From Lepiota brunneoincarnata (taxonomy: Eukaryota > Basidiomycota > Agaricomycetes > Agaricales > Agaricaceae): a stretch of 64,000 bases of DNA. The position numbers were made by a program, and so were the translations under genes. A model generated the notes under the pieces. That model did not search any database and was not told the origin of the DNA. It saw nothing but the letters and a program-made list of their open reading frames with translations. The stretch covers positions 272,693 to 336,692 of the forward strand of contig JAEBUN010000043.1 of assembly GCA_023014365.1 (NCBI GenBank), in the 5' to 3' direction. Below, piece after piece: positions 20,083-61,695 of this stretch. Position 1 is the stretch's first letter, and each line of letters begins with the position of its first letter.

Positions 20083-21383
20083 TGAAAAGGTAGAAACTTT
20101 CGTAGGTTTTAATATAGATAGGGGGCTCGTTTTCACTAAGCTTAGCCGCTATTCGATAAGCTTAAGCTAATACAAGTGGAATGAGATAGATAATGAACAG
20201 TTTCGTCTTTTAGGGTGTTCTGGGGGTGCGTTCTGACAGCGAAATTCAAGAGAGTAGTGTTTTTAGAGGTTAACGAACAGCCGTTGAAGTTATCTTAGCC
20301 GTACGGTGCAACAATGAAAGGACAATCCCTGTCAATTCAAAGCGCTGGGTCTCTGGTCTCTGGTCTCTGGTCTCTGAACTCTGGTCTCTGTCTCTGTCTC
20401 TGTCTCTAGCACTCTGGAACTCTAAACTCTGAACTCTGGTCTCTGTCTCTGTCCCTGGGTTGGTCGACGACCGAAGAAATCACACTTAACGACGCACACT
20501 AAATAGCCCTCTGAAACCGTTCTTGATCACGGCTCGCAGACTTGCGTGTGGAAGCGGGGGTGAGACCTCTTTCCTCTCCACGAACAAGTGCGACCGTATT
20601 TATATTGTTTAGATACATACAAGAGATAGTAAATATGAAATAGAAAACAATAAGCTTAATTGTTACAGGCACTGTAGAACATTTTGGAAGGTTCGGCAGC
20701 ATTTCTACCTCACCCTGGGTTATGGGTTTTTCTCTGATTAACGAATGGCAATCCAGCCAGACGTGCTCCGTGCTCGGCTGCATTATTCTGCGTCCACGCG
20801 AGCGTGTTAAGTTTCCGGATCAATTATGATCGGAATGTATAGCGGATGGACAATCCCTTGATCCGTTGTAATTAATCTCAGTTAAGCAGAATGCCGAAGT
20901 GCCGGGACCCACAAAGCACTCATTAATTAGGAGTCTTTGATGTTTCTAGGGTTTTGGGCATCGGGTATTGCCTCCCGAACGTTGGACGTTCCGTTCCGTG
21001 GTCCGGTCATCATTATTGAACTTGCTATAGACGTAATACGCCTGTGACAGCCGCTAGGTACATTCTTTTATGTTCAAACGCATTCGGGTTCATCAGAAAA
21101 CTGCTTGTAAGGTCCCTGGATGCGACCGGGGTATACTCGATAGGCTATGTAGAGTCCTGAATCCCTCCGGAGAGCGTTCTGATAGCTTGGTTCACTAAGC
21201 TTAGTGATAATGAGCTGGTTTGAACACTTCCGAGGCTCGAATATCCTCAGTTCGGTCGAACTGGCTACTACGGGATATAGTACCAATCCTCTATAGAGTT
21301 CTTTAATGATATAGCCAATGATTCTATGTAGAGAATCGTTCCGGAGTACGGAATTCATGTATAGGCGTGAAATCGGCATATCA
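20083..21383 (-). repeat. 3' LTR of element C1
   Basis: On the plus strand it starts TGAAAAGGTAGAAAC and ends GGCATATCA. It contains a GGTCTCTG/TCTCTG-rich minisatellite (about 20346-20460) and four TAAGCTTA palindromes (20137, 20157, 20651, 21196). The last is part of the 14-bp palindrome CACTAAGCTTAGTG. Confidence 0.95.
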
Positions 21384-21402
21384 TCTCCCCCTAACCAAAT
21401 TG
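21384..21402 (-). promoter_or_regulatory. Polypurine tract of element C1
   Basis: On the minus strand GGTTAGGGGGAGA runs directly into the 3' LTR start TGATATGCC, the position and composition of a plus-strand primer. The same site in C3 is 61678-61695. A near-identical sequence is repeated internally at 24133-24152. Confidence 0.7.
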
Positions 21403-21710
21403 CTGACTGTCCTCAGTCATTATCTCCTTCAAATTCACAGTATCTGAGTCTCTCTGACGCGCTCTATGGTCTAGAACGTTCACCAGCTTCGAGGGTAGCG
21501 CACTTTCGCTAAGCTTATTTCAGAATGATGTCATGTCACCGAGTTTAAATGTATAGATCAACTTCTTGTTGCTATAGCTTAAATTTTTATCTCTTTATTG
21601 GGTCTTTTAAATGTCCCAAGGTCTTGTTTCATCTCCTTCGTTCTCCCTCTCACTTCTTACTCGTCTATTGTGCTCGCATATTCACTTTTCAACGCTCACT
21701 TCTATCAACA

Positions 21711-23741
21711 ATGGACAGAAACACGCGCAGCAGCAAACGTGCTCGCTACGAGGAGGACTCGGACTCTTCTTCCAGTAAGTAGAGTTCGAGTTACAGTTTT
21801 GTCTGTTTTCTTAACACTGTTTTCAGGCTACCCTGGGCCGAGCAACGCCTCAACGGCTTCCCAAGGCGCGCCTTCATCATCGATCGCGCAACGTAAGTCG
21901 CGTTTTCCCCTGTTCTCGTTGTCTTTACTTATGTTTTCTCTACTTTTAGGTCTCACTATTCGCCTCCCGGCACGTTGCAACCTCCTACCTCAATGGGAAC
22001 CACCAGCACCGCGTACTAGGAGGGCTAGAGGAGGGCGAGGAGCTCGAGGAGCTTGCGGAAATCGTCAGGTGGGTGTGGCAAGGACCCCTCCTCCACCATA
22101 CTCTCCGCCCTGCGAACCAACTCCTCCGCCGGCCTCTCCTTTGTACGCTCCAGTGCCAAGACGCGTGATTTCCATCGCGTCGTTGTGCAATCCAACTGAC
22201 GAGCGCTCTGCCGGATTTTCCGCAGAACCCTCGTCAGGTATCCCCGTTGGCGGGCCCTCTGGTGGATTATCCACAGAGGCTTCGTCCAGTTCAATGTCGC
22301 TGCCCCCTCTCGCCGTCTCTCTGCGCACCCTGGACGAGGAAGACTCGCTGGTGCTCCCTCCCTTGGGTATTGCATCAGGTTCGGAGGTGCCGGGCCCTTC
22401 AACAAACCAGCCTTCTTCCCCTGTACTCTCTTCTGCTACTTCAATGCGTAAGCTTAGTCGTTTTTCACGATATATTTGTTCTTTCCGCTGACTTCTGCTT
22501 TAGCGCGTATACCAGCTGCCTTTAAAGGCAAACAGAGGGCGAAATCATCGACGCCGCCCCCTCTCCCCTTATTCCTGGCGGGTTCTAACTCGTCATCGCG
22601 TTCTCCAGTCCCTGAGATCTCTCAAGCCAACCTCTTCAAAATCTTTAGCTGGTCCTCTTCTCTGGATGGGCAACAGGTGCTGGCTTTGCCTAGGTGCCCA
22701 ACACCATCACCACCTCACTTAGCTGGCGCTCCAGTCGCGTCTCCCGCAAGCGCCGTGGAGATTTCTCCTTCTCCAGATTTGGAGCTCCTTCTGGAGCCTT
22801 CGCCTGCCCCTCAAGAACCGACTTTTGTTTTTCAAGACACGTTCTTAGCTTCTCTGACCCCCGTCCTTTCTCGTTTGCCTAGCCCGGTGGTTCCGGAGAT
22901 CCCTCAAGAGTCCCCTCATGCTGGCCCGTCATGTCAACAACACGTCCTTTCGTCCAAGAAGAGTTCCAACACGCGGACGAAGAAATACGTTCCCCGGGCT
23001 CGCGTTCGGCGCTCTGAGGCCGAAATTATTCGGGACCATGGATACCGGCACCCAGTCCCGCTCTTTTGTGAGGACTTTCCTAGGCTGCTGGCAGCTAGCC
23101 AGCTTTCGGTACGTTCTCCAAGTTTTCTTGTGGTTCCTTACTGATGGCTTTGACATCTGCTCCAGTACGTGCCACCTCGGTCTCAGTGTCCTTCTTGCGC
23201 TGCTCGTAAGTTGGAGTGCGAGCCTCTGGGCAAGGGTAAGAAGTGTCGCAGCTGCAACTTGTACAACTACCCTTGTACCTTCGTGGACCATCCCCGGGTT
23301 TCGGCCGGCGTTGCGAACGCCCTGGTCACATCCTCACTGACCAGTGAATACCGTAAGTTTCTCTGTTCACTATTTTTCCCTTTTCTTATTCTCTTTATTT
23401 TTCTAGATCTGGCCGCGTTCGCGCGTGTTGTGTCCTCTAGCTTGGTCAGCCTGGAGGCGAACCGCGTCGCTTACAAGGCTTCGGCGTTTCACCACCGCCA
23501 TGTAGTTTATCAATTCGTCCAGGAGATGCAAGCTACCAGGACTGCCTTGGACGGTAACGACGTGGCTTTTGTAGAGATGGGTATGGCCGACTCCCTTGAA
23601 GACGTTTGGGCGTTCTTTGAGTTCGCCAACAACTTTCCGGGGGTCCCAACATACGAGGAATTCGAGGAGCTCAAATCGCTTCTCTTCCTCGCTTTCCCGA
23701 TGACTCAGGATCCGGAGTCTGTTCTAGAAGACCTTGAGTGA
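21711..23741 (+). CDS. Cargo gene Z: proline/serine-rich protein with a Zn(II)2Cys6 pattern, antisense to gag-pol
   Basis: Six exons fit canonical GT-AG sites: 21711-21774, 21827-21892, 21950-22447, 22504-23108, 23166-23352 and 23407-23741. They join to 1755 nt, in frame throughout, giving 584 residues. The N-terminus is short and basic (M-D-R-N-T-R-S-S-K-R). Residues up to about 410 are proline- and serine-rich. Exon 5 gives C-X2-C-X6-C-X8-C-X2-C-X6-C (cysteines near 419, 422, 429, 438, 441, 448), the exact spacing of the fungal zinc-cluster DNA-binding domain. The basic residues usual between Cys2 and Cys3 are few. The C-terminal 110 residues are partly acidic and look helical. Introns can persist because the gene is antisense to the genomic RNA. 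A DNA-binding role is inference. C3 carries a truncated copy. Confidence 0.78.
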
Positions 23742-24132
23742 TCTCTGCGCCTAGTTTACTTCTTGGATGTAGTATATAATCTTGTCATGTATATACATCC
23801 CAATAGTCATCTTGTTGTTCCTTGTCTCCTACTGAGTTAAGCTAAACTGTTTTTGACTTTCTTGTCATCTCCTAAAGCTAAGCTAAAGACCTCCTGGGAG
23901 ACTCCTAAGCTAGTTTAGGTTGCCAGTCACTTATATACTCATTATATGCCTCTCTGATCTATCAGTGATGTTTATTGACATCTCAGCGCGCCGTGACCCG
24001 CAACGCGTAGTGACCCGGCTCATCCGCTCCGGTTTACTTACAAGCCCGAACCAGCCTGTCCACGCTGTTCGAAAAAGCTCCTCGCGAAAAAGCTCGCGTC
24101 AAACTGTCAAACTGAAGCGCCCCTTGGGACCC

Positions 24133-24152
24133 ATCTCCCCCTAGCCAAATTG
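24133..24152. promoter_or_regulatory. Internal copy of the polypurine-tract sequence
   Basis: ATCTCCCCCTAGCCAAATTG matches the sequence at the 3' LTR boundary (21383-21402) at 19 of 20 bases. It lies 294 bp upstream of the gene Y start, and the LTR-boundary copy lies 327 bp upstream of gene Z. It is conserved in C3 at 63421-63440. It may be a second (central) polypurine tract, a former element boundary, or a shared promoter motif of the two cargo genes. Confidence 0.6.
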
Positions 24153-24374
24153 AAATCGGTGCCCTCACCGTTCCATCAGAATCCCTGTGCACACTGATAA
24201 CCGCGAGACCCTGGCGACATGTTACCTAATAAGGCAACTGTGGTTCAGCAAGTCTGTCGAAGGCTGGCTACTCAAGATTACAGGTTTCCTAGGCCCCTCA
24301 GGTCATAAGCTTAGGGTGGAGGGTGCTCTTCATCCACTCGTTATGATTCGTCATCACTGCCTACGGCCTTTTCT

Positions 24375-24380
24375 TATAAA
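24375..24380 (+). promoter_or_regulatory. TATA box of cargo gene Y
   Basis: TATAAA lies 52 bp upstream of the gene Y ATG, in the context CTTATAAAAGCG. The same box and spacing occur in C3 (63663-63668). Confidence 0.6.
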
Positions 24381-24426
24381 AGCGAGGGAGCGACGTCTCA
24401 TTCTAGCAGACACCCTTCGCAAGAAA

Positions 24427-25773
24427 ATGGCTTCTTCTATCCCCCATCTCCAGGTTGAGCTCGACGATCTCATCAGCAACGCCAAAGGTTGTCTTCAGTG
24501 CCTGCAAAACGGCCAAGTCGCTTGTCCCCTCGTCGAGAAGGCTCTCCTTGCGTTTGACGCCCCTGGGGTATGTCTACTCTTTCCATGCTTCTCTCGCCGT
24601 TTCCAAATCATTTCTAGTCTGCTTATATTGAAGCGTTATCGGAGGATAATGAGGCTATCAAGCTTCATGTCAACCAGGACTACGTCTTCCGTATCCGCAA
24701 GCTCTACGAAATCTACCAAAACAACTACCATTCGTCTTATGAGATGCCCGTGATCTATAAGGCGCTCTCTGAATGCTGTAGCCGCATTAATCGCGTTCGT
24801 TCCGAAGAATCCCACAAATCCAGGACCGAAGAGGCTCAGAACCCATCGTCCACAACTGGCTCTACTTCCTCCAACGTTGCTGAAGGCTCTGCTGTCCCCA
24901 AACACGTAAGCTTAGCGTTCTTTTGGCTCCAATCGTCTCCTCATGTATAAGCTTAGCCTCGCAAAGGTCGCAAGGCCCCTGTCTCTGCTGCTGTTGTGGT
25001 AGACACCGATACCGAGCTTGCTGAGAGTATGCCCAGTGCTTCCAACTCCCGAGCAACTGGTGCTGACACGGTAATATAGCTGCTTCTCAACCTATTACAT
25101 TGGCTGAGATAATCGCTCGCCTCCAGGACATGATGGTCGATGAGGAGGTCTCTCAAGCTATCGTCGAAGAGGTTCGTGTAGTCTCGCCTTATTGCAAGCG
25201 TCGTTTGTCTACCTCCGACGTGGTGCACCAGCTCCACTCCCCCCAACCACTGATTCTGACTTCCTCCCTCTTTAGGAGACCGTCAAAAAGTCCTCATCGT
25301 CTAAAGGCACCATCCGTCTTCTTTCCTATTGTCAAGTTCCCAATATGAACACTAAACACTGCTGTTATGTCCGGGCTGAACAGGTTCTAGCCAAAGCCAG
25401 CGCCAATACTGCCAAGCGCGCCCGTACCGAGTCTGCTTCCGATGAGCGCACCTTTGCAGGCTTATCTGGTGGGCAATTTCTCACTTCTCTTTGCTAAGCT
25501 TAACGGTACTGACACTTCTCCCGGGCAGCTCGTTTGCTCCAGGAACTCCAAAACCTCCTGTCTCACTCTCGCGACGAGTACGAATCCGAATCTCGCGGTG
25601 ACGACGCTCGGTCAGTCAAATGCGACCTCAATTCGCTCAGCCGGGACTTCATCGATGCTATTCCCTTGCTCGAAGCCAACTTAAAAAGGTTCCAATTCCT
25701 CATTCAAGAGCGCATCCGTCTCAAAAGCCTTTTGCGCAACCTTTCCGACTTGGACAAGTCCTCCCCCGCTTAA
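24427..25773 (+). CDS. Cargo gene Y: unknown spliced protein, antisense to gag-pol
   Basis: ATG 24427 follows a TATA box. The first three exons are clear and in frame: 24427-24567, 24618-24905 and 24957-25070. Beyond them the splicing is uncertain. The last exon starts near 25531 and ends at 25773. The start reads S-I-P-H-L-Q-V-E-L-D-D-L-I-S-N-A-K. The middle is charged and serine-rich with a basic K-H-P-R-K-G-R-K, and the C-terminus looks helical or coiled-coil (L-L-Q-E-L-Q-N-L-L). No cysteine or histidine cluster and no known family is recognised. The stop codon lies inside a TAAGCTTA palindrome, 77 bp from the convergent pol stop. C3 repeats the start of the gene (63715), so the gene is a regular part of the element. 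Confidence 0.65.
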
Positions 25774-25849
25774 GCTTAACGCTTTTACAGTCCCCAGGAT
25801 AGTTTTCCTTCGATAAGTAGATAGTTCTGTCCACAATATCAGGTTTTTT

Positions 25850-28800
25850 CTATCCCTCCAACTCTTCTGGCTCCCATCTGTCACTAGGCTCATCCTCAGT
25901 AGTCTCCTCCAGGGTCTTCAGTCCCTCTGGCGACAGATCTAACAACTCTTGTAACTCCAGCGGCAACGGCATATGTTTTCTGGCTAAGTAGGGAATTACT
26001 CTGAATGCCGCCACTTTATTCTGCCATACAGAGCCATCCAACTCTGCCAGGATATATGATCCTCCCTTTGATCTAGATATGACCACCATGGGTCCTAGAT
26101 ACCTGGGTTTCATCTTCCTGTCTGCTGAGCTCTCTATAGCTGTGTTTCTCACTAATACTAAATCTCCCGGGCCGAAGCGATAATCTTTTATCTTATGCGC
26201 TGCTTGTCGTTCCATCTCCCAAGCCTTGCTAAGCTTAGTGTCTGAAACACGCTGACGCACCTCCTCAACATGCCGAACATGTTTTGCCAAAGCCTGAGCT
26301 TGGTATCCTATCAACTCGGCCGTGGTTAAGTACTTATTTGGTAGTTGTACTAGCCAAGTGGCCTCTTTGACATCCAGAGGTAGCGTCGGGTGCGCTCCGG
26401 TTACCAGAAAGTACGGGGAACACCCCATTCCTTTTCTAATGGTTATCCGATCTGCCCACATAACGTGCGGTAGGTGCCAATACCACTTTTTGACATCTCC
26501 ATCTGTAGCTTTGTACAACATTTGCCGCACATCCCAGTGGGCTCTTTCAATAATCCCGTTCGCTTTGGAATTGTAAGGAGATATCGTTACTCCTTTTATC
26601 CCATATTTTTCTTCCAGCCATCGAACAGCTTTCTTAAATGGAGAACCGTTGTCCATGACAATCTTCACTATACAGCCCCATCTGCAAATGATATCTTCAA
26701 ATAACCACTGCGCAATCGAACTAGCATTCTCTTTTCTCAAAGCTTTTGCCTCCATCCAGGACGACAGTCCACACCTTCCATGCACAATATAACTACACCC
26801 ATTAGAACTTGGCGTCATATGTAGTGTGTCCACATGTAGCACTTGGAATATCGACGGCGTGGGCGTTACTATTGGCGGCGTCTCAATGATCGCCTTTTGT
26901 TGTTGCTGGCATAGATGGCATGATTGCACATACCAAGTTACGTCTCCTTCAACTTCCGGCCACCAGAACCTCTGCGTTATAAGCTTAGTGGTTGCGTATA
27001 TTCCCCTGTGTCCTAGGAAGTCGTGGCTGGCTCGCAACATATACATACGTTGCTCCTTATCCACTACTAGCTGATGCTGACCGCTAGGGCTCATCCTATA
27101 CAGTCTCCCCTCTTCGTCCAAGAAGAAATGCTCCACCATATGCTTAAGCTTACGCAGATCCGGCTCATCCAAGCCTTCAGCTGCGCTACTGCCCCCTGTT
27201 TTCAGGTATTCCCTGACTTTGGGTATTCTTCCGTCTTGTATTCGCGCTGTATCTGTCCTATGCGATTCATCATACGCTTCCTCTATCTCGGTCAACTTTT
27301 CCTCTTCGAAATCTGGCACTAGCCTGACATCCGTCATTAAGCTTAGTACTTGTCGGTGGTTTTCTGGGCACGCTGGGTCTTCTATAACCCTAAGCTTAGC
27401 CTGTTGTTCATCCAAGTACTCTTCCCGAGCTTGATCCAGCTCATACTCAAAATCATACACATCACGCGCCAGACCCTGGTAGAAGCCAGAGCGACTGTCG
27501 ATCTCATCACAGAAGGCTTCCAAGGGTAACGGATCTGCAGCCCCCAGATCTCCTTTGATCAACTCGAACTCCTCTCCCTCGTCCTTGGATCCGTCGTCGA
27601 AACGACGGGCTGTCTCATCACCGGGATAGTAACGTCGTCTGGACAGTCCATCTGGCCCAAATGTCTTTCCTTCTTTGTGTACTAGCGTGAAGTGGAACGA
27701 TCTAATGAAGTCTACCCAACGGTTTACAGTAGCGTTCGGGAGTTTTCCTGGGTTGTTTAACATCCCAAAGAGAAACTTCGCGTCTGTTTCCACTACTAGA
27801 TTTCTCGATCCCCACAACAAATATTTCTCCTGTTCCAGCACCATTCTTAAGCCGCATAGCTCTCGCTTGGGCTGAGAATACCTCTGCTGTCTCTCGTCCA
27901 ACAATATTGACCCAAACTTCGCATAATGTATAAGCTTAGCGTCTTCTCCATCTCGCTGATATATGTAGTATCCCACCGCCCTCCATGAGGTATCCACGGC
28001 TACTACTATGGGTTGTTTACTCGGGAATTTGGGGTTCCTGGTCAGGAAACAGCGTTGAATTGCATCTTTCAGCTCCTGCTGTGCTTTCCGTTCATTTTCT
28101 CCCCATTCAAACTCTTGCCCTTTCTTAAGCTTTTCGTATAGGGGTGCAGCAATGGCTATGAACTTCGGGATATGATTCCTGCAGCGCGTAGCTGTTCCTA
28201 GAAAACCCCTTAGCTCGGAGACATTCTCGCAATCCCCCCATCTTAATATCTTCCCAATGGTGTCTGTGGCAGGCAACTGTCCTTTATAAGAGCATTCAAA
28301 ACCCACTACGGTGATTTCATCAGCGCAGATAGTCGTCTTGGGCCCAGAGAAGGTTCCTCCTACGTATTTCATCCTCTGTAGAATCCTATTGACCGTCTGC
28401 ATGTGTTCCCATACAAATTGTCGGATCCCTGGGTTTTCTTTCAGCGTCTCTTCCGTGCCATCTGGCAACTCATATCTAGTTTTGGGTCCTCTGATAGGTA
28501 CATCATCTATGTACGGCATCGTGTATTCTGGTATCTCACTGGTTAGGATCGCTGTTACATCCTCATGAAATATAGGCACTGAATTGGTCCATCCCATGGG
28601 TAACGTCACTAAGCGTAGCGCTCCAAAAGGCGTCTGGAACGTTGTTAAGTCCCGAGATGACTCAGCTAACAGTCGTTCGTCATAGCCAACATATAGATCC
28701 AGAATGCCTCTGCAGGCTCTGCCTGCGAAGTGCATTGCCAAATCTTCCGTTGCTGGCGGCAGTCCTGAATGCGCTATCGTCACTTTGTTCAGCGGTTCCA

Positions 28801-29620
28801 AGCTGTGTACCAGTCTCAAACTTTTCCCATCTTTCTTCACCACACAGAACCATCTGGATCTATAGGATGAGTTCGACGGCTCGTATACACCAGCACTAAT
28901 CTTTCTCTTTATAATGGCACAAACTTCATCATAGATCGCTGGTGGAATCGGAATGGGTTTCTCAACCCACGGAGTATGTTCTACCGTCGGTATCTTGATC
29001 GGCGGGAAGAAATCTTCCCTAAAACATCCCTTTTCCTCATCTGTCCAGGCGAATGCCTTTTCTTGAAGCATCATGATGTGGTGCATCAGCTTTCTTTCCT
29101 CTGGCCACAAGAAATCCCCTGCATGGGCTTCGTCCAGCTTAAGCTTACGCTCCTCCGTATATCTGCCTGTCGGGACAAACTCTGGAGGATGCACGCTAAG
29201 CTCAGGCATTTCTGCCAGTGGGTCCCCTTTTATTTCTCGTTTTATCCTGAATCTCTCCGGTAGATCACCCAACACTGGCCTCACTTTTAAGGCTACTGGT
29301 TTATATTTCTTCCCAGCCAGGCATTGTACCGTATCTTTGTCATCTTCTTCTGTTTCGAAGACAGTTATTCCCTGGTCCTCTGTGCCCTGCGCGTTGGCTA
29401 TGCATCCTAGGCACAATAACGCCGTTGCTTTATCTTCCTGTGGGCAGTCCTCATCGCGTATGACTCGGTCAATGAACATTAGCTGTAGCTCGGCCTCTGA
29501 GAAGCTTCCTTTTGCTAAGCTTAGTGTTTGTGCGACGACAGGGCCCTTCTCATCATCATAGTCTATTATATAAGCCACCTCTCCTTGTCCCTCAGTCAAC
29601 TCATCGAGGTTTCTTGAAAA
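25850..29620 (-). CDS. pol: Element C1 pol: RT-RNaseH-integrase
   Basis: About 1256 codons are open, entered by a -1 shift at the slippery site 29617-29623, because the frame has no early ATG (first possible start TTG 29599). Counting from 29599, the RT first catalytic aspartate is near residue 301 (I-L-D-L-Y-V-G-Y) and Y-I-D-D is at 363-366. RNase H D-T-S-W is near 536. The integrase H-H-C-C finger ([13 protein letters not shown]) lies near 890-940, followed by a DDE core with M-D-N-G-S-P-F and N-G-I-I-E-R-A-H. The C-terminus has a GPY-like P-R-Y-L-G-P and no chromodomain. Unlike A, B and D, this lineage is therefore not a chromovirus by that criterion. There is no internal stop, so it looks functional. 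Confidence 0.93.
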
Positions 29621-29623
29621 TTT
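29617..29623 (-). promoter_or_regulatory. -1 frameshift heptamer A AAT TTT (protease to pol)
   Basis: In the protease frame the codons are CAA AAT TTT CAA. The heptamer fits the X XXY YYZ rule and precedes the protease stop by six codons. The -1 frame is open into pol. It is conserved in C2 (58750-58756). Confidence 0.72.
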
Positions 29624-29699
29624 TGACTGTTTTCCCTAAGCTTAGGAGGATTACACTCTCCTCGAGCATAAGTTGGTAACACAGCCCTTTCTCTGGTAT

Positions 29700-30360
29700 T
29701 GTTAGAGCCGGTGCGGGTCGGAACCGAAGCGGAGGGTCGGAGTGGTATCCTTGGTATAAGGTAACCGGGGGACGGGACGACATCAGTACGTAGACGGCGG
29801 GACCGAGGCGGAGTACTTCGGGCGGAGAGTGGACTTGCGGCCTCAGCTTATGTGCTGTGCCCTCCTACTGTCCGAGTCCGTATTTCAGGAAGTCGGGGCC
29901 GAAGCGGAGCGAGGCAGAGAGAGAGGAGGATAGGGAACAGGGGACTGGTCCGCTGCTCGATTCGATTATCAGACTGAGGAGTACAAGCCAAGTGCCTACG
30001 GTATATATACTACTAGCTCGACGAATGATGACTCGTACTGACTACGTGCGGAGCGAAGCGGAGACCCATATGGTTACAAGCGGATTACAAATAATTTCGA
30101 ATGGAATGGAGACCGGTACGGGTATGGAGACTGGTAACGTATTCTGATTACGGACGGAGAATGGAGAACTGGACAATGGGAGCACCGAGGGTCGGGTGGT
30201 CGTGGCACGTGTAGAGGTAGGTCGCGTGATCAGGGCGAAGGGTTGCGGTCGGAGCCAGTCGGGGCCGAGTCGGAGGGCATAGGGTTGTCGTGTGGAGCAC
30301 ACGTGGAGTCAAGAAGCCGAAGCCTAATGGTTAAGCTCTAGGTTTGGTGTGGATATGACA
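29700..30360 (+). mobile_element. Solo LTR-B in the C1 protease
   Basis: A 661-bp LTR-B with perfect GGTAT target duplication (29695-29699 and 30361-30365). The uninterrupted site is seen in C2, where the same pol sequence reads straight through. The plus orientation is opposite only by convention: it starts TGTTAGAGCC on the plus strand, as in the other copies of this window. Confidence 0.96.
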
Positions 30361-31370
30361 GGTATTTGGGTCCGTAATAACCAAGGTTTGCTCGCCACTG
30401 GCGCTATTCCTGACTTCGCTAGCCGTCATTACATCAAAGGGTCATCCCAGGAGTACTCGATATGCGGGGCTACGAACGATGTGAACTTGCAAATAGATTG
30501 TGACTCCCCCGCAGGTAAAGCCTACGTTCTTTGCCAATCCACAAGTCTTTTCAACCTGCCCATTCGCACTCTGCAAATTTATCGTAGTATCTGGGTCCCA
30601 AGAAACTTGACATGCAATCGCCGCTTCCTGACTCATGGAGACGATCTGTGACCCGCTATCTAGCAAGGCCTCTTCCTGCCGAATCCCATTTATCAGAGTT
30701 GGCACTACTCTCAACGACTCGCATTCTTTCGCAATAAACACTTGCCGTCCCCTGTCTCTTCGGGGCAGTGACTCCAAGTACTGCATGATTGGATCCTGAG
30801 CTACCCAGGCTTGGGTTGCCGAGCCTTCTCGGAGCACCGTATCATACTTCCAAGAGCCATCTGCCAACTCCGTTATCATGACTTGTACTGGCCCACTATT
30901 AATCTCTATATCTTCTGTATCATCGTCCCCGGGCCCTACTCCTGCTATTAAGCTTTGACTCGTGGGTACCCGTTTTCTCATAATGCGCTCTCTATAAGCA
31001 TTCCTGTATATCGGTGACAAGGCCAAGAGTTCTCCATGCGATACTGAGGCTTCTCGCTTCAATACCCTGCTGAGTACTTCCTCAACATCGACATTCCTCT
31101 CTATAGGGGCCTGGTGCTTATACACAGGCTCCTTCTTGGATGGTTCCATCCTTCTGACAGGTAGTGGTGGTACCTCAACGACCGGGCGCAGTGGTTTCAC
31201 ATTTCTATATGGTAATTCTCCTGCTGTGGCACGCATTGGTTTCTCCGTTGTCTGCCCTATTTCCTCATTTTCTGATTCTTCTGATCGCTCGGAATCCGAC
31301 GCGTCCTCAGGAGTCTGTCCTCTGGCGAAGGCGACCTTCTTCTTCAGAGCCGGCTCCTTCCTTGAACCCT

Positions 31371-33287
31371 TTAGAAACCCAACTCCGAGTTCCAAGTCTT
31401 CGCGCCACTCCTGGTGTCCAAATACTGGCTTGCCGAGGGCGTACCATCTGTCAAACCACTAAGCTTAGCCTGTATCTGGGCCAATTGCTCGGCCAAAGAC
31501 TGTATCTCGACATTATCATCCTTTCTGGTCATAAGCTTAACCTTTGGGGCACTCCCGGTGTGGATGGCAACTGTCTCTAACATTTCCATGCGCTGCTTCA
31601 GATGGCGGACTTCTTCTTCCGCTGGTGACCTTTGGTTTTCTGACCTCGGGAACGCTCTCTGTGCAAACACCGCTGACGTTGGCACTTGCGGTAACTCAGG
31701 CTCAACCTCCGGCAGTTCTGGTATCTGAACAAAGAGTTGTCCCTTTGTCGCATAGTACTTTGCCACTTTCTCTTTAATAGGCCCTTCTCCTCGAGGGATA
31801 CTCGAGCCATCTCCCATATATATTTTGTTCCCTTCGACTCTAATTCGGCCAGCTTGTTTATCCGCCTCCATGTCCGGGCAGAATAACCAACTATGCCCTA
31901 ATAACCAGCAGTAGAAACACTTGCGATTGGAAAGCGACCCTGCCGACCCACTTCCGGTATTCCTCTGAGCGTGATTATAACCGGCATGATTATGTCCTTC
32001 TTTCGCCAAACTCTCTAAGTATGATTTTAAGGTATGCCCCTGGATATTCATGAGGTCCTTAAGCTCAGCGAGACCGCCTGCCATCTGCGAGACTTCATCC
32101 TGAAACTTCTGTTTTAAGCTTTGCAGCTCTTGCTTTACTACAGGGTCATAAGTCCCTGTTCTGGACGTCGCAGGTGGATGGCTCATTGATGCCGAGTTCA
32201 CCGGCCTTGAATCCTGATGAAGGGATCGCATAAGTGTTTTGCCAATCGAAATTTCGACGGCTTTATCCATGACGATCCTCCAATCATAGGGGTCCTCTTC
32301 GCGTAAATCCTTCGCAGTTAGTGCCGACCCATCGCTCGCGGTTCTACGTGCCCCGGTGATCGCTAATCTCGCATTGAGTACGTCCTGGAACACGGAGTCC
32401 AGTGCGCTCGTAAATAACTCGACTAGCTCTCGGTTCGAGACTACCGCCGGCGACTTCAGGCACTTCTCTGCTTCTAGGATGAATCGCCTTTTGAAGTCTA
32501 AGACTCTATGCTCCTCATTCATTGCAATGCCTCTACTCTCTGTGCAGAGTTCCCTCAATCGTCGCACTGAGCCCTGCTCGGCTGCCACAGTCTCGGGATA
32601 CTCTTTCTTCAATCTCTCTACGAAGCCTGTCCAGCTTCCTGCTGGGAACTCCGCAAAACTCATCCACTCTTCATGGATATCCTGGTCCACATATGACACT
32701 GCCCAATTTATCCTTTCTGCATCGTCCGTCGTCTTCGTTATCGTGAAGAGCCGTTCAAGCGTCCAGAGATAATTTCTCAATGTCTGTGGTTTTGATGCAT
32801 CCCATCTGGGAGCATTATTGCTAAAGGGAATTGGCATACGCTCGTGTCCCATTTTTCTAGCTGTAGTCGTCGTAGACGGCGTAGTTTGGTTTGTCTGTAC
32901 AGTCGGAGTTGACTGTGATATCTGTGGTACCGTAGAGGCACCAGGAGGGTTCGTATGAAACGAGTTTTGGTTTGTAACCGCTAAGCTTAGCGTAGGAACG
33001 GTCTGGCCATCCTGGCTTTCGGTGCGCAGAATATGCGCTATGTTGCGAGCTGAGGCTGGAAGCCTTAGTGTAATTCTGGGAGCAGTAGAGGTCGGCGGTG
33101 CGACTTCTCTCGATACTGCAACTGCTGAACCACTCGCTGTGTTCGCAGCTAGAGAGTTAACAGGATCTTTTCGCTTTCGAGAGGTACTAGCGGCAATGAG
33201 GCCTTCAGAACCTTCTGGACGATTGGAATTCCGAGTAGTTCTCTGTTTTGGGGGGTCGACCTTCCTGAGACTGTTCTCGAAGGACAT
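31371..33287 (-). CDS. gag: Element C1 Gag
   Basis: The frame is open from inside the LTR, but the first plausible ATG is 33287 (M-S-F-E-N-S-L), giving 638 codons. The order is a basic, serine/threonine-rich head, a Ty3-type capsid segment (W-T-L-E-R-L-F-T-I-T, W-A-V-S-Y-V-D-Q-D-I, L-D-F-K-R-R-F-I-L-E-A-E), then a linker. A single knuckle-like C-F-Y-C-W-L-L-G-H-S-W-L-F-C fits C-X2-C-X4-H-X4-C. The helical tail has several leucine heptads. It ends L-G-F-stop at a slippery site. In C2 the homologous ATG has become ACG. Confidence 0.9.
   Translation of the reverse strand: MSFENSLRKVDPPKQRTTRNSNRPEGSEGLIAASTSRKRKDPVNSLAANTASGSAVAVSREVAPPTSTAPRITLRLPASARNIAHILRTESQDGQTVPTLSLAVTNQNSFHTNPPGASTVPQISQSTPTVQTNQTTPSTTTTARKMGHERMPIPFSNNAPRWDASKPQTLRNYLWTLERLFTITKTTDDAERINWAVSYVDQDIHEEWMSFAEFPAGSWTGFVERLKKEYPETVAAEQGSVRRLRELCTESRGIAMNEEHRVLDFKRRFILEAEKCLKSPAVVSNRELVELFTSALDSVFQDVLNARLAITGARRTASDGSALTAKDLREEDPYDWRIVMDKAVEISIGKTLMRSLHQDSRPVNSASMSHPPATSRTGTYDPVVKQELQSLKQKFQDEVSQMAGGLAELKDLMNIQGHTLKSYLESLAKEGHNHAGYNHAQRNTGSGSAGSLSNRKCFYCWLLGHSWLFCPDMEADKQAGRIRVEGNKIYMGDGSSIPRGEGPIKEKVAKYYATKGQLFVQIPELPEVEPELPQVPTSAVFAQRAFPRSENQRSPAEEEVRHLKQRMEMLETVAIHTGSAPKVKLMTRKDDNVEIQSLAEQLAQIQAKLSGLTDGTPSASQYLDTRSGAKTWNSELGF
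31374..31380 (-). promoter_or_regulatory. -1 frameshift heptamer G GGT TTC (gag to protease)
   Basis: In the gag frame the codons are TTG GGT TTC TAA. G GGT TTC fits X XXY YYZ and sits directly before the gag stop. The -1 frame opens into the protease ORF. The same heptamer and stop are kept in C2 (57659-57665). Confidence 0.72.
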
Positions 33288-33403
33288 TTTGGGTGACTTT
33301 ACGGTCTTTGCTTGAACCTTTTTCTGCTTCGCAGGTGAAAGGCGGGCCAGTGTCCAAGTCTTTTTGGTGTTTGGCTCATGAAATTCAACTGAAAACCCCC
33401 CTT

Positions 33404-33416
33404 GCGGTGGGCTCCA
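33404..33416 (-). promoter_or_regulatory. Candidate tRNA primer-binding site of element C1
   Basis: Two bases after the 5' LTR the minus strand reads TGGAGCCCACCGC. It starts with the TGG expected to pair with a tRNA CCA end. I cannot name the tRNA. This contrasts with the self-priming sites of A and B. Confidence 0.55.
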
Positions 33417-33418
33417 GA

Positions 33419-34719
33419 TGAAAAGGTAGAAACTTTCGTAGGTTTTAATATAGATAGGGGGCTTGTTTTCACTAAGCTTAGCCACTATTCGATAAGCTTA
33501 AGCTAATACAAGTGGAATGAGATAGATAATGAACAGTTTCGTCTTTTAGGGTGTTCTGGGGGTGCGTTCTGACAGCGAAATTCAAGAGAGTAGTGTTTTT
33601 AGAGGTTAACGAACAGCCGTTGAAGTTATCTTAGCCGTACGGTGCAACAATGAAAGGACAATCCCTGTCAATTCAAAGCGCTGGGTCTCTGGTCTCTGGT
33701 CTCTGGTCTCTGAACTCTGGTCTCTGTCTCTGTCTCTGTCTCTAGCACTCTGGAACTCTAAACTCTGAACTCTGGTCTCTGTCTCTGTCCCTGGGTTGGT
33801 CGACGACCGAAGAAATCACACTTAACGACGCACACTAAATAGCCCTCTGAAACCGTTCTTGATCACGGCTCGCAGACTTGCGTGTGGAAGCGGGGGTGAG
33901 ACCTCTCTCCTCTCCACGAACAAGTGCGACCGTATTTATATTGTTTAGATACATACGAGAGATAGTAAATATGAAATAGAAAACAATAAGCTTAATTGTT
34001 ACAGGCACTGTAGAACATTTTGGAAGGTTCGGCAGCATTTCTACCTCACCCTGGGTTATGGGTTTTTCTCTGATTAACGAATGGCAATCCAGCCAGACGT
34101 GCTCCATGCTCGGCTGCATTATTCTGTGTCCACGCGAGCGCGTTAAGTTTCCGGATCAATTATGATCGGAATGTATAGCGGATGGACAATCCCTTGATCC
34201 GTTGTAATTAATCTCAGTTAAGCAGAATGCCGAAGTGCCGGGACCCACAAAGCACTCGTTAATTAGGAGTCTTTGATGTTTCTAGGGTTTTGGGCATCGG
34301 GTATTGCCTCCCGAACGTTGGACGTTCCGTTCCGTGGTCCGGTCATCATTATTGAACTCGCTATAGACGTAATACGCCTGTGACAGCCGCTAGGTACATT
34401 CTTTTATGTTCAAACGCATCCGGGTTCATCAGAAAACTGCTCGTAAGGTCCCTGGATGCGACCGGGGTATACTCGATAGGCTTTGTAGAGTCCTGAATCC
34501 CTCCGGAGAGCGTTCTGATAGCTTGGTTCACTAAGCTTAGTGATAATGAGCTGGTTTGAACACTTCCGAGGCTCGAATATCCTCAGTTCGGTCGAACTGG
34601 CTACTACAGGATATAGTACCAATCCTCTATAGAGTTCTTTAATGATATAGCCAATGATTCTATGTAGAGAATCGTTCCGGAGTACGGAATTCATGTATAG
34701 GCGTGAAATCGGCATATCA
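33419..34719 (-). repeat. 5' LTR of element C1
   Basis: 1301 bp, about 99% identical to 20083-21383. It has the same TCTCTG-rich minisatellite and four TAAGCTTA sites (33473, 33493, 33987, 34532). Confidence 0.95.
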
Positions 34720-46203: not shown

Positions 46204-47454
46204 TGATATGCCAATTTCACGCCTATACATGAATTCTATACTCTGGAACAATTCTCTACATAGAATCATTGGCTATATCATTAAAGAACCCTATAGAGGA
46301 TTGGTACTATGTCCCATAGTAGCCAGTTCGACCAAACAGAGGATATTCGAGCCTCAGAAGTGTTCAAACCAGCTCATTATCACTAAGCTTAGTGAACCAA
46401 GCTATCAGAACGCTCTCCGGAGGGATTCTGGACTTTACATAGCCTATCAAGTATACTCCGGTCGCATCAAGGGACCTTATGAGCAGTTTTCTGATGAACT
46501 CGGATTTGTTGGAACCTAAAGAATGTACATAGTGGCTGTCGCAGGAGTATTACGCCCATAGCAAGCCCAATAATGATGACCGGACCACGGAACAGAACGT
46601 CCAATGTTTGGGAGGTGACACCCAATGCCCAAAACCCTAGACATATCAAAGACTCATAATTAACAAGTGCTTTGTGGGTCCTGGCACCTCGGCATACTGC
46701 TTGACTGAGATTAATTACAACAGATAAAGGGATTGTACATACGCCATACATTCCGATCATAATTGATCCAGAGGTTTAACATGCTTGTGTGGACACAGAA
46801 TAATGCAGACAAGCACGGAACATGTCTGGCTGGATTGCCATTTGTCAATCAGAGAAAAACCCATAACCCAGGGCAAGGTAGAAATGCTGCCAAACCTTCC
46901 AAAATATTCTGCAGTACCTGTAACAATTAAGCTTATTGTTTTCTATTTCATATTTACTATCTCTTGCATGTATCTAAACAATATAAATACAGTCACGCTT
47001 GTTCGTGGAGAAGCAAGAGGTCTCACCCCCGCTTCCACACACAAGTCTGTGAGCTGTGACCAAGAACGGTTTCAGAGGACTATTTAGTGTGCGTTGTTAA
47101 GTGTGATTTCTTCAGTCGTTGACCAACCCAGAGACAGAGACAGAGACAGAGAACAGAGTTCAGAGACCAGAGACCAGAGACTAGAGACCCCATGCTTTGA
47201 ATTGACAGGGATTGTCCTTTCACTGTTGCACCGTATGGCTAAGATAACTTCAACGGCTGTTTGTTAACCTCTAAAAACACTATTCTCTTGAATTTCACTG
47301 TCAGAACACACCCCCAGAACACCCTAAAAGACAAAACTGTTCATTATCTATCTAATACTACTTGTATTAACTTAAGCTTATTGAATTTTGACTAAGCTTA
47401 GTGAGAACAAGCCATTTATCTATATTAAAACCCATGAAAGTTTCCACCTTTTCA
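46204..47454 (+). repeat. 5' LTR of element C2
   Basis: 1251 bp, TGATATGCC...CACCTTTTCA, the inverse of the C1 LTRs and diverged. It keeps four TAAGCTTA sites (46384, 46928, 47373, 47393). Confidence 0.93.
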
Positions 47455-47481
47455 TCTGGAGCCCACCGCAAGGGGGGTTTT

Positions 47482-55222: not shown

Positions 55223-56661
55223 GTTTTCAGTTGAATTTCATGAGACAAACACCAAAAGACCCAGACACTGGCCTGCCTTTCACCTGCAAAGCAGAAAAAG
55301 GTTCAAGCAAAGACCGTAAAGTCACCCAAAACGTCCTTTGAGAGCAGTCTCAGGAAGGTCAACCCCCCAAAACAGAGAACTACTTGGAATTCTAATTGTC
55401 CAGAAGGTTCTGAAGGCCTCATTGCCGCTAGTACCTCTCAAAAGCAAAAAGATCCTACTAGTTCTATAACTGCGAGCACAGCGAGCGGTTTAGCAGTTGC
55501 AGTATCGAGAGAAGTTGCACCGCTGATCTCTACTGCTCCCAGAATTACTATAAGGCTTCCAGCCTCAGCTCGCAACATAGTGCATATTCTGCACACCGAA
55601 AGCCAGGACGGTCAGACTGTTCCTATGCTAAGCTTAGTGTTTACAAACCAAAACTCATTTCATACAAACCCTCCTGGTGCCTCTACAGTACCACAGATAT
55701 CACAGTCAACTCCGACTGTACAGACAAACCAAACTACGCCATCTACAACGACTACAGCTAGTAAAATGGGACACGAGTGTATGCCAATTCCCTTTAGCAA
55801 TAATGCTCCCAGATGGGATGCATCAAAACCACAGACATTGAGAAATTATCTCTGGATGCTTGAACAGCTCTTCACAATAACGAAGATGACGGACGATGCA
55901 GAAAGGATAAATTGGGCAGTGTCATATGTGGACCAGGATATCCGTGAAGAGTGGATGAGTTTTGTGGAGTTCCCAGCAGGAAGCTGGACAGGCTTTGTAG
56001 AGAGATTGAAGAAAGAGTATCCCAAGACTGTGGCAGCCGAGCAGGGCTCAGTGCGACGATTGAGGGAACTCTGCACAGAGAGTAGAGGCATTGCAATGAA
56101 TGAGGAGCATAGAGTCTTGGACTTCAAAAGGCGATTCATTCTAGAAACAGAAAAATGCCTGAAGTCGCCAGCAGTAGTCTCAAACCGAGAGCTAGTCAAG
56201 TTATTTACGAGCGCACTGGACTCCATGTTCCAGGATGTACTCAATGCGAGATTAGCGATCACCGGGGCACGTAGAACCATGAGCGATGGGTCGGCACTAA
56301 CTGCAAAGGATTTACACAAAGAAAACCCCTATGATTGGAGGATCGTTGTGGATAAAGCTGTCGAAATTTCAATTGGCAAAACACTTATGCAATCCCTTCA
56401 TCAGGATTCAAGGCTGGTGAACTCGGCATCGATGAGCCATCCACCTGCAACATCTGGAACAGGGACTTATGACCCTGTAGTAAAGCGAGAGCTGCAAAGC
56501 TTAAAACAGAAGTTTCAGGATGAAGTCTTGCAGATGACAGGTGGTCTTGCTGAGCTTAAGGACCTCATGAATATCCAGGGGCATACTTTAAAATCATACT
56601 TAGAGAGTTTGGCGAAGGACGGACATAATCATGCTAGCTATAATCATGCTCAGAGGAATAC

Positions 56662-57077
56662 TGTTATCAGAAGTTCCCCTAAACCCCTTATCAGAAGCCT
56701 CACCAGAAGGAACTCTTATCAGAAGCACCCAAAGTATATAAATAGATAGAAGACCTGTCATCCTGAAACCTTCAGAAGTACCATCAGAACAATCTATACT
56801 TAGATAGATAAGGATATGACTCACTTACCTGGGTCCAGATATATAGAGTAGGAGCACAGCCACACATAGTAGTATATAAGGATACTGTACCATACCCTTG
56901 TATCCTTATCTTAGTGTTATACAGTTCTTGCCTCCTATATCTCTTTGCCCTTAAACCGGCTGGACTATAGTGCTCTGTTGTCTCCAAGTCATGCCTAGTA
57001 GGACAGGACCAAGTCTGTATAGACATCCTGTGTCAAATGCCGTGCTACTCAAGAGCAAACCCCTAACCCAGGTAACA
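56662..57077 (+). mobile_element. Solo LTR-F in C2 gag
   Basis: 416 bp, TGTTATCAGAAG...CAGGTAACA, with a perfect AATAC duplication (56657-56661 and 57078-57082). C1 shows the empty site. Confidence 0.95.
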
Positions 57078-57658
57078 AATACCGGAAGTGGGCCGGCAGG
57101 GTCGCTTTCCGATTGCAAGTGTTTCTACTGTTGGTTATTGGGGCATAGTTGGTTATTCTGCCTGGACATGGAGGCGGATAAACAAGCCGGACAAATTAGA
57201 GTCGAAGGGAACAAAATATATATGGGAGATGGCTCAAGTATCCCTCGAGGGGAAGGGCCTATTAAAGAGAAAGTAGCGAAGTACTATGCAACAAAGGGAC
57301 AACTCTTCGTTCAGGTACCAGAACTGCCGGAGGTTGAGCCTGAGTTACCACAAGTGCCAGCGGCAGCAGTGTTTGCACAGAAAGTGTTCCCGAGGTCAGA
57401 AAACCAAAGGTCGCCAGTGGAAGAAGAAATCCGCTGTCTGAAGCAGCACATGGAGATGTTGGAAACAGCTGCCATCCATGCTGGCAGTGCCCCAAAGGTT
57501 AAGCTTATGACCAGAAAGGATGATAATGTTGAGATACAGTCTTTGGCTGAGCAATTGGCCCAGATACAGGCTAAGCTTAGTGGTTTGACAGATGGTACAC
57601 CCTCAGCAAGCCAGTATTTGGACACCAGGAGTGGCACAAAGACTTAGAACTTGGAGTC

Positions 57659-57665
57659 GGGTTTC
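57659..57665 (+). promoter_or_regulatory. Conserved -1 heptamer G GGT TTC in C2
   Basis: Same codons and same adjacent TAA as in C1, despite decay around it. Confidence 0.65.
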
Positions 57666-57668
57666 TAA

Positions 57669-58765
57669 AGGGTTTGAGGAAGGAGCCGGCTCTGAAGAAG
57701 AAGGTCACCTTTGCCAGAGGACAGACTCCTGAGGATGCGTCAGATTCCAAGCGATCAGAAAAATCAGAAAATGAGGAAATAGGGCAGACAACGGAGAAAC
57801 CACTGCATGCAGTAGCAGGGGAATTACCATATAGGAATGTGAAACCACTGCGCCCGGTCGTTGAGGTACCACCGCTGCCTGTCAGAAGGATGGAATCATC
57901 CAAGAAGGAGCCTGCATATAAGCACCAGGCCCCTATAGAGAGGAATGTCAATGTTGAGGAAGTACTCAGCAGGGTATTGAAGTGAGAAGCCTCAGTATTG
58001 CATGGAGAACTCTTGGCATTGTCACCTTTATACAGGAACGCTTATAGAGAGCGAATTATGAGAAAACGGGTACCCACAAATCAAAGCTTAATAGCAGGAG
58101 TTGGGTCCTTGGAAGATGATACAGAAGATATGGAAATTAATAGTGGGCCGGTACAGGTTATGATAATGGAGTTGGCAGATGGCTCTCAGAAGTATGATAC
58201 AGTGCTCCAAGAAGGCTCGGCAATGCAAGCCTGGGTAGCTCAGGATCCAATCATGCAGTACTTGGAGTCACTTCCCAGAAGAGACAGGGGACGGCAAGTG
58301 TTTATTGCTAAAGAATGCAAACCGTTGAGAGTAGTTCCGACTCTGATAAATGGGATTTGGCAGGAAGAGGCCTTGCTAGATAGTGGGTCACAGATCATAT
58401 CTATGAGTCAGGAAGTGGCAATTGCATGTCAAGTTTCTTGGGACCTAGACACTACGATTAATTTGCAGAGTGTGAATGGGCAGGTTGAAAAGACTTGTGG
58501 GTTGGCAAAGAATGTAGGCTTTACCTGCAGGGGAGTCACAATCTATTTGCAAGTTCACATAGTTTGCAACCCCGCGTATCGAGTACTGCTGGGACGACCA
58601 TTTGATGTAATGACTGCTAGCGAAGTCAGGAATAGCACCAGTGGCAAGCAAACCTTGGTTATTACAGACCCAAATACCAGAGAAAGGGCTGTGTTGCCAA
58701 CTTATGCTTGAGGAGAGTGTAATCCTCTTAAGCTTAGAGAAAACAGTCAAAATTTTCAAGAAACC
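57669..58765 (+). pseudogene. Element C2 protease ORF
   Basis: Homologous to 29596-31395 without the LTR-B insertion. Two CGA-to-TGA stops (57983-57985 and 58709-58711) break it. The motif L-L-D-S-G-S-Q-I-I-S-M is near 58380. Confidence 0.85.
58750..58756 (+). promoter_or_regulatory. Conserved -1 heptamer A AAT TTT in C2
   Basis: Identical in sequence and frame to the protease-pol site of C1. Confidence 0.65.
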
Positions 58766-60377: not shown

Positions 60378-61677
60378 TGAAAAGGTAGAAACGTTTGTAG
60401 GTTTTAAATATAGATCATGGGCTTGTTTTCACTAAGCTTAGCCGAAGTTCGATAAGCTTAAGCTAATACAAGTGGAACGAGATAGATAATGAACAGTTTC
60501 GTCTTTTAGGGTGTTCTGGGGGTGCGTTCTGACAGCGAAATTCAAGAGAGTAGTGTTTTAGAGGTTAACGAACAGCCGTTGAAGTTATCTTAGCCGTACG
60601 GTGCAACAATGAAAGGACAATCCCTGTCAATTCAAAGCGCGGGGTCTCTGGTCTCTGGTCTCTGGTTTCTGAACTCTGGTCTCTGTCTCTGTCTCTGTCT
60701 CTAGCACTCTGGAACTCTAAACTCTGAACTCTGGTCTCTGTCTCTGTCTCTGGGTTGGTCGACGACCGAAGAAATCACACTTAACGACGCACACTAAATA
60801 GCCCTCTGAAACCGTTCTTGATCACGGCTCGCAGACTTGCGTGTGGAAGCGGGGGTGAGACCTCTTGCTTCTCCACAAACAAGTGCGACCGTATTTATAT
60901 TGTTTAGATACATACAAGAGATAGTAAATATGAAATAGAAAACAATAAGCTTAATTGTTACAGGCACTGTAGAACATTTTGGAAGGTTCAGCAGCATTTC
61001 TACCTTGCCCTGGGTTATGGGTTTTTCTCTGATTAACGAATGGCAATCCAGCCAGATGTGTTCCGTGCTCGCCTGCATTATTCTGTGTCCACACGAGCGC
61101 GTTAAGACTCCGGATCAATTATGATCGGAACGTATAGCGGATGGACAGTCCCTTGATCCGTTGTAATTAATCTCAGTTAAGCAATAGGCCAAGGTGCTGG
61201 GACCCACAAAGCACTCGTTAATTAGGAGTCTTTGATATTTCTAGGGTTTTGGGCATCGGGTGTCGCCTCCCGAACGTTGAACGTTCCGTTCCGTGGTCCG
61301 GTCATCATTATTGGGCTCGCTTTCGACGTAATACTCCTGTGACAGCCGCTAGGTACATTCTTTATATTCAAACGCATCCGGGTTCATCAGAAAACTGCTC
61401 GTAAGGTCCCTTGATGCGACCGGAGTATACTCGATAGACTATGTAGAGTCCTGAATCCCTCTGGAAAGCGTTCCGATAGTTTGGTTCACTAAGCTTAGTG
61501 ATAATGAACTGGTTTGAACACTTCCAAGGCTCGAATATCCTCAATTCGGTCGAACTGGCTACTACGGGACATAGTACCAATCCTCTATAGAGTTCTTTAA
61601 TGATATAGCCAATGATTCTATGTAGAGAATCGTTCCGGAGTACGGAATTCATGTATAGGCGTGAAATCGGCGTATCA
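60378..61677 (-). repeat. 3' LTR of element C3
   Basis: 1300 bp, same orientation as the C1 LTRs, with four TAAGCTTA sites (60433, 60453, 60946, 61490). Confidence 0.93.
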
Positions 61678-61695
61678 TCTCCCCCTAACCAATTG
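61678..61695 (-). promoter_or_regulatory. Polypurine tract of C3
   Basis: GGTTAGGGGGAGA on the minus strand abuts the LTR, as in C1. The internal copy is at 63421-63440. Confidence 0.65.

Follow-up and report, generated by a model that had tools for sequence, protein, structure and literature searches.

The 64,000-bp stretch of the Lepiota brunneoincarnata genome analysed here (the window; C40:272693-336692 of a genome of 55.6 Mb in 95 contigs) holds three copies, C1, C2 and C3, of a repeat family, C, that are studded with an 8-bp palindrome, TAAGCTTA. C is a large family of Ty3/Gypsy long terminal repeat (LTR) retrotransposons. C1 has LTRs of 1301 bp, with gag, protease and pol in gag-pol order on the minus strand, and two spliced plus-strand genes with open frames, Z and Y, lie between pol and the 3' LTR. 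Z and Y were modelled by hand, and all statements below on their exons, splice sites and stop codons refer to those models. The pol frame gave profile matches to RT_RNaseH, RT_RNaseH_2 and Integrase_H2C2, and the reverse transcriptase (RT) domain model itself had no match on it in the Pfam profile search. Its best relatives in the protein library are 62-67% identical, Agaricus bisporus among them, and the pol relatives listed carry the same precomputed domains. C2 is split by another element (about 47497-55228). The main features are as follows.

20083..21383, minus strand: 3' LTR of C1, with four motif sites
21711..23741, plus strand: gene Z of C1, six exons, 584 amino acids (aa), with a Zn2Cys6-like cluster in exon 5
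24427..25773, plus strand: gene Y of C1, six exons, 342 aa, with its stop codon inside motif site 25771
25850..29635, minus strand: pol frame of C1, 1261 aa, with RT_RNaseH and Integrase_H2C2 and eight motif sites in codons
30442..31458, minus strand: protease frame of C1, matching gag-asp_proteas (PF13975, E 1e-7)
31371..33497, minus strand: gag reading frame of C1, stop to stop, with sites 31460, 31532 and 32982 and overlapping two LTR sites
33419..34719, minus strand: 5' LTR of C1, with four motif sites
46204..47481, plus strand: LTR of C2, with four motif sites (46384, 46928, 47373, 47393)
55254..60380, plus strand: internal part of C2, truncated in pol, with six sites (55629, 57500, 57572, 58729, 58850, 59226)
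60379..64000, minus strand: 3' LTR and part of the antisense genes of C3, which continues beyond the window, with eight motif sites (60433, 60453, 60946, 61490, 61803, 62740, 63194, 63594)

The window contains 45 exact copies of TAAGCTTA, against a mean of 0.64 and a maximum of 3 in 100 dinucleotide shuffles. A recount reproduced the figures of the first-pass annotation of this DNA, namely 27 copies in C1, 10 in C2, 8 in C3 and none elsewhere in the window, and the boundaries it gave for C1 (20083-34719) are correct. Because four of the 27 sites in C1 belong to the second LTR copy, 23 are independent. The runner-up among the palindromic 8-mers of C1, GCTTAAGC, has five copies. Site spacing along C1 is not distinguishable from random-uniform (Kolmogorov-Smirnov p 0.86), and no regular spacing is seen. 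The palindrome is also absent from the parts of the window that hold other Gypsy pol sequences, which are about 24% identical to C. All six gag-protease-pol sites of C2 are sites of C1 and had been described as kept, and each of the six is indeed intact. The first observation of the palindrome is thus confirmed, and the results exceed what was originally claimed for it.

Conservation and turnover of the palindrome

Ten further copies, fetched as halves, were aligned to C1 together with C2 and C3. Each of the ten has 21-28 sites when both stretches are combined, so that the enrichment extends to relatives. The alignment comprises 324 site-copy cells, 263 of them alignable and 61 not (three diverged copies, L029-L031, stand outside this count), and TAAGCTTA is intact in 260 of the 263. 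Counted by column, 3 of 2104 motif cells are changed, in comparison to 827 of 18405 cells within about 40 bp, or 589 of 16726 when positions that are CpG in C1 are omitted. When every column with a CpG in any copy is excluded, variation is seen in 1 of 216 motif columns versus 1317 of 11790 others (Fisher p 4e-10), and in the same test 26 of the 27 motif windows are invariant versus 51% of other windows. The expectation that sites diverge less than their neighbours therefore holds overall, in the LTRs (p 5e-4) and in the Z/Y part (p 3e-5), but the column test is not significant in pol alone (p 0.09) or in gag-protease alone (p 0.25), and these last two results count against the interpretation developed below.

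Comparison with C60, a copy of a second subfamily, gave a similar picture: 26 of the 27 sites of C1 are kept, versus 70% of control 8-mers (CpG-free, with at most 4 G+C), and in the Z/Y part 8 of 8 are kept, versus 53% of controls. At positions in pol where a transition is synonymous and no CpG is involved, 3 of 267 motif cells are changed versus 464 of 11231 others; all three changes are at site 29140, which weakens this single test. A circular-shift control was uninformative (maximum 1.0), since very few windows remained eligible after some of the shifts.

The three changed cells are one and the same change at one site, 29140, which reads TAAGCTTG in copies C60, C1x and C1y. Exactly these three, among the copies examined, have gained a new TAAGCTTA 57 bp from it, at 29197; C1 has TAAGCTCA in that place. 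Pairs of sites 57 bp apart occur in the place lists for two more copies (genome positions C1:721438/721495 and C1:3271597/3271654) and, read from the spacing alone, may be intermediates that have both sites. A further extra site is present at 23879 in L018, L020, L029 and C3, where C1 reads TAAGCTAA.

Genome-wide, TAAGCTTA occurs 5370 times, whereas its 24 one-mismatch neighbours have a mean of 564 (13532 together, a difference of two counts). A pattern around LTR site 21196 (33 places, with free letters) has 306+287 genome matches at up to 2 mismatches. In the 100 matches listed, all of which have perfect anchors and are thus the best-kept copies, the motif is intact in 99 and reads TTAGCTTA in one, while the adjacent 8-mer left free as a control has a common G/A difference and, in 7 copies, a further change (both counted by eye). 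The pattern around internal site 24306 has 67+70 matches at up to 3 mismatches, in comparison to 7+4 for a reversed control; in the matches listed with letters, the motif is intact in 7 of 7 and the control 8-mer is changed in 2 of 7. As a rough estimate rather than a per-copy count, the 593 LTR matches times four, the internal sites at no more than about 137 places and the background together approach 5370.

Differences between C1 and its copies are concentrated at CpG positions, which make up 11% of columns and account for 1784 of 6527 changes (27%); 93% of these 1784 are C>T or G>A. This bias makes methylation-like silencing of C copies likely and points to cytosine methylation of the family. 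It is almost certain that TAAGCTTA is a selected functional DNA motif.

The palindrome in codons, splice sites and spacers

The eight pol sites all occupy one or the other of the two phases in which TAA is not read as a stop codon, and they encode KL or SL. As had been anticipated, their number exceeds codon-aware expectation: synonymous shuffles using the gene's own codons gave a mean of 0.064 and a maximum of 2 in 5000 for pol, and for the gag frame, with 4 observed (one in the LTR overlap), a mean of 0.065 and a maximum of 2 in 3000.

The pol protein was further compared with the best 120 of 1349 relatives, divided into the 11 nearest and 109 others. The 16 core residues coded by the motif match the 11 nearest at 37%, versus 62% for all residues and 61% for other K, L and S; for the 109 others the corresponding values are 31%, 54% and 51%. 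The required KL or SL is found in only 13 of 88 site-protein cells among the 11 nearest, and these are unevenly distributed (7/11 at 26980, 4/11 at 26230 and at most 1/11 at each of the other six sites). Since several of the nearest relatives already have KL at 26980 and 26230, no protein change was needed there. At 29140, C1 has a leucine where 11/11 nearest and 97/109 other relatives have an acidic residue. Alignment gaps relative to the nearest relatives are few (3/11 at 29516, 1/11 at 26230 and none at the other six). Therefore, because the motif-coded residues match relatives less than other residues do and the required dipeptide is mostly absent from them, the DNA motif opposes the residues of related proteins at most pol sites.

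The positions of all 27 sites, each an exact TAAGCTTA, are listed below. Their placement in LTRs, introns, spacers and open pol and gag codons, part of the original description, is upheld by this map and by the gene models.

20137..20144: LTR
20157..20164: LTR
20651..20658: LTR
21196..21203: LTR; kept unchanged in 99 of the 100 best-preserved genome copies listed
21510..21517: spacer 5' of gene Z
22449..22456: 5' splice site (GTAAGC) of Z intron 3
24306..24313: spacer between Z and Y
24907..24914: 5' splice site of Y intron 2
24948..24955: 3' splice site (CTTAG) of Y intron 2
25495..25502: within Y intron 5
25771..25778: the TAA of the motif is the stop codon of gene Y
26230..26237: pol, KL
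26980..26987: pol, KL
27145..27152: pol, KL
27338..27345: pol, SL
27391..27398: pol, KL
27931..27938: pol, KL
29140..29147: pol, KL; changed in the three copies having the new site at 29197
29516..29523: pol, SL
29637..29644: upstream end of the pol frame
31460..31467: gag frame
31532..31539: gag frame
32982..32989: gag frame
33473..33480: LTR
33493..33500: LTR
33987..33994: LTR
34532..34539: LTR

Within the antisense genes, two sites are 5' splice sites, one is a 3' splice site and one is intronic, and the coding exons of Z and Y have no site except for the three bases of the Y stop codon. The exons were modelled as follows.

Z exons, plus strand: 21711-21774, 21827-21892, 21950-22447, 22504-23108, 23166-23352, 23407-23741
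Y exons, plus strand: 24427-24567, 24618-24905, 24957-25026, 25080-25171, 25276-25468, 25529-25773

Some further features of C1 and its surroundings were noted. A 660-bp LTR-like insertion lies between protease and pol (29700-30361); it is related to LTR-like repeats at 37075 and 47497 and is absent at that position from 10 of 10 fetched 5' halves. No target-site duplication was found between the flanks 20061-20082 and 34720-34745, and the ends of C1 may therefore have recombined. Adjoining C1, at 35310-36659, is a 449-aa open frame with CxxC motifs, perhaps another transposon gene.

Antisense genes, related elements and candidate binders

Gene Z encodes six cysteines with the spacing C-x2-C-x6-C-x8-C-x2-C-x6-C, of the binuclear-cluster type, at about residues 419-452 of 584. 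The six are invariant in the 8 sequences aligned, from which L029, L016 and L031 (exon length not divisible by three) as well as L020 and L026 (= L018) were omitted. Between C1 and the second-subfamily copy L018, nonsynonymous and synonymous divergence (dN/dS) of Z are 0.086/0.529, with 0.041/0.529 in the part that comprises the zinc cluster and the C-terminal end, and those of Y are 0.027/0.177 (a ratio of about 0.15); for pol, between C1 and C60, they are 0.018/0.208. Z and Y are thus constrained between subfamilies, as judged from these comparisons. Y matches no Pfam family above the cut-off. The likeness of Z to fungal Zn2Cys6 (Gal4-type) factors consists of the cysteine spacing and a weak Zn_clus match, and it differs from them in that its cluster lies far from the start of the protein and falls below the Pfam cut-off.

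The strict conservation of the palindrome in LTRs, spacers and codons, together with the gain of a new site close to one that was lost, points to a dimeric DNA-binding protein that needs many sites. In the mechanism proposed here, the approximately 23 independent palindromes would act as double-stranded DNA and would be bound along the element by a symmetric dimer. The likeliest binder would be C's own antisense-encoded Z, with its Zn2Cys6-like cluster and conserved C-terminal domain, possibly with Y as a partner. Occupancy of the whole element would hold C open against host silencing of the CpG-methylation type and so allow transcription, as VANC does for VANDAL elements, and private recognition through many sites would spare host genes. 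That Z binds TAAGCTTA and is anti-silencing is put forward tentatively, as a real possibility that may well prove wrong.

Several results weigh against this proposal. In the copies closest to C1, Z has nearly equal dN and dS (0.018/0.013 for L010, 0.026/0.025 for L014 and 0.038/0.033 for L016); this is expected because these are mostly dead insertions, but it gives no support for selection there. The Pfam Zn_clus model (PF00172) scores below its cut-off of 21 bits both on exon 5 (E 0.01, 16.4 bits) and on whole Z (E 0.6, 10.7 bits), and on exon 5 it is beaten by zf-ChsH2 (E 0.0018, over 17 residues), itself sub-threshold. Residues 360-584 of Z had no protein-library homologue at E 0.001 among 2656 candidates, in a search whose reach is limited to relatives of similar length that have exact words in common with the query. 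Neither the last third of Z nor the zinc exon had a homologue in the PDB, where a profile match of the zinc exon was rejected as a chance haemoglobin match, and the AlphaFold2 model of this exon was too poor to use (predicted local distance difference test score, pLDDT, 52). Moreover, typical Zn2Cys6 proteins bind CGG half-sites, which TAAGCTTA lacks. Comparisons with related elements, given next, tell partly for the proposal, through the scarcity of TAAGCTTA in a sister family with diverged Z and Y and the different palindrome beside another Z-like gene, and partly against it.

A sister family, E, found with a relative's pol, has a pol 63-67% identical to that of C and the same layout. Its antisense genes are diverged: the counterpart of Y matches at 29% (E 1e-6) and that of Z at 34% (E 3e-4), both E-values being for one 10-kb stretch. 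E has one TAAGCTTA in each of five 10-kb stretches (L032, L033, L036-L038) and none in L034 or the E-like L041; four in L035 belong to a C-family LTR. The top wobble word in both E copies counted is TAGKTAAC, with 12 and 13 occurrences versus about 1. However, its cells are changed in 6/259 and 1/122 cases versus 244/27825 and 250/24296 for other cells, so that it is not conserved above its surroundings, and an unrelated element in the window scores similarly with CGGCSCCG. TAGKTAAC is therefore at most a tentative motif of E. The E copy that was read also lacks the first of the six Z cysteines and, given this and the lack of conservation of TAGKTAAC, co-evolution of Z with the motif can at most be suspected. 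The diverged Z copies L029-L031 were considered as a test of motif change and rejected, since they belong to the same family and share its motif, at densities of 22, 17 and 10 sites per 10 kb.

When the genome was searched with the Z of E, 10 loci came up at 73-100%, along with two distant ones. At locus F (contig C5, L039/L042/L043, C5:109641-116080), a Z-like zinc cluster with the spacing C-x2-C-x6-C-x8-C-x2-C-x7-C precedes the same C-terminal domain. This locus is bounded by 79-bp inverted repeats (C5:109641-109719 and 116002-116080), like a DNA transposon, and has no second close copy in the genome search. A 56-bp unit containing the inverted repeat TGAACGTCCNGGACGTTCA recurs there (14 times within 10 kb, counting units at 60% identity or more); TGAACGTCCNGGACGTTCA is an imperfect palindrome whose full 19-mer is exact only twice, a further point against the proposal, and its 7-bp half-site occurs 26 times in 14 kb. 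GGACGTTCA occurs 13 times at locus F versus 0.11 expected, in part because the 56-bp units repeat. Frames at this locus match a fungal protein kinase. Another Z-like locus (L040 3200-3830, C6) has the same cluster spacing as locus F; no motif of its own was seen in L040, where the top words come from a neighbouring element.

The broadest reading of these loci is that, in this fungus, LTR retrotransposons as well as a DNA transposon encode proteins of one Z-like family that activate them or counter their silencing in a site-specific way, every element having private, self-written sites (TAAGCTTA in C, TGAACGTCCNGGACGTTCA in F and perhaps TAGKTAAC in E) that in C even cost polymerase residues. 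Such a family would be an independently evolved fungal counterpart of VANC, acting in C by marking the whole body of the element rather than through tandem arrays. This generalization is regarded as doubtful.

The main rival to binding by Z is a host protein (a transcription factor, remodeller, insulator or origin-binding protein) whose sites the element has accumulated, Z having a different role. Selection on the motif leaves the binder unnamed, and a fungal Isw2 protein in Magnaporthe is reported to bind palindromic motifs in retrotransposon DNA (PMC11481914). However, the genomic excess of TAAGCTTA is roughly explained by C copies according to the estimate above, and the motif was not gained by E, a sister family that shares this genome. 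A host binder is considered rather unlikely.

A role in RNA is less probable again. The palindrome reads identically in RNA, where the self-complementary UAAGCUUA could drive dimerization or packaging of genomic RNA or regulate splicing, and three sites are splice sites of the antisense genes. Nonetheless, RNA pairing tolerates G-U, whereas the sites are nearly constant, the 3 changed cells of 2104 being one change at one site. Most sites are not splice sites, and a splice signal is rejected as a general explanation because only 3 of the 27 are; about two dozen dimer sites would also seem excessive. It is very unlikely that the sites guide integration, self-targeting or pairing between copies, for instance as binding sites of integrase or Gag: copies do cluster, C3 lying directly against the truncated C2, but the 22 and 26 bp flanking C1, the only flanks considered, have no motif. 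Finally, the idea that the motif spread by chance, through a bias in mutation or as part of a duplicated repeat unit can practically be dismissed: TAAGCTTA lacks CpG and so escapes the commonest type of mutation per site, but non-CpG columns and composition-matched 8-mers still vary, the flanks of the 23 independent sites look unrelated, the pol sites align to relatives mostly without gaps while replacing residues that relatives share, and a neutral origin is rejected by these controls together with the synonymous shuffles.

Known systems and implications

VANDAL elements of Arabidopsis, with which the first-pass annotation had compared C, have many short family-specific motifs and an accessory gene, and the motifs differ among related families (PMC5735166, PMC10398659). 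The comparison holds in part: C likewise has many copies of a short motif, repeated throughout the family, and an accessory gene. In contrast, VANDALs are plant Mutator-like DNA transposons with a VANA transposase, whereas C is a fungal retrotransposon with LTRs, gag-protease-pol and RNase H and integrase domains. VANDAL motifs (YAGTATTAY; AGTTGTCC or AGTTGTAC) are tandem repeats in noncoding DNA, while those of C are single palindromic sites dispersed along the element, including codons (eight sites in pol), splice sites and a stop codon.

Antisense open reading frames (ORFs) between pol and the 3' LTR occur in the plant LTR retrotransposons Grande of maize, with gene23, RIRE2 of rice and Retand of Silene; the parts of the literature available on them describe no dispersed motif, and C differs in that it has two antisense genes, both spliced, of which one encodes a zinc cluster. 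The Botrytis element Boty, with brtn, is reportedly grouped with these antisense-ORF elements. The Drosophila gypsy insulator resembles C in having repeated Su(Hw) sites in a Gypsy element, but those sites form a compact, host-bound cluster in one noncoding region, whereas the sites of C are spread through LTRs and codons. Searches of open-access literature found no LTR retrotransposon that maintains some two dozen copies of a single 8-bp site and has them even in polymerase codons, splice sites and a stop codon.

Even with a host binder, the density of sites and the strength of selection on them make C a rare natural experiment on the number of sites needed. If Z does bind TAAGCTTA, then fungi would have their own sequence-specific anti-silencing of retrotransposons, independent of that in plants. 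C would then offer a direct test of self-marking by an element and a protein-motif pair for opening mushroom chromatin, and the antisense genes of retrotransposons would gain a testable role.

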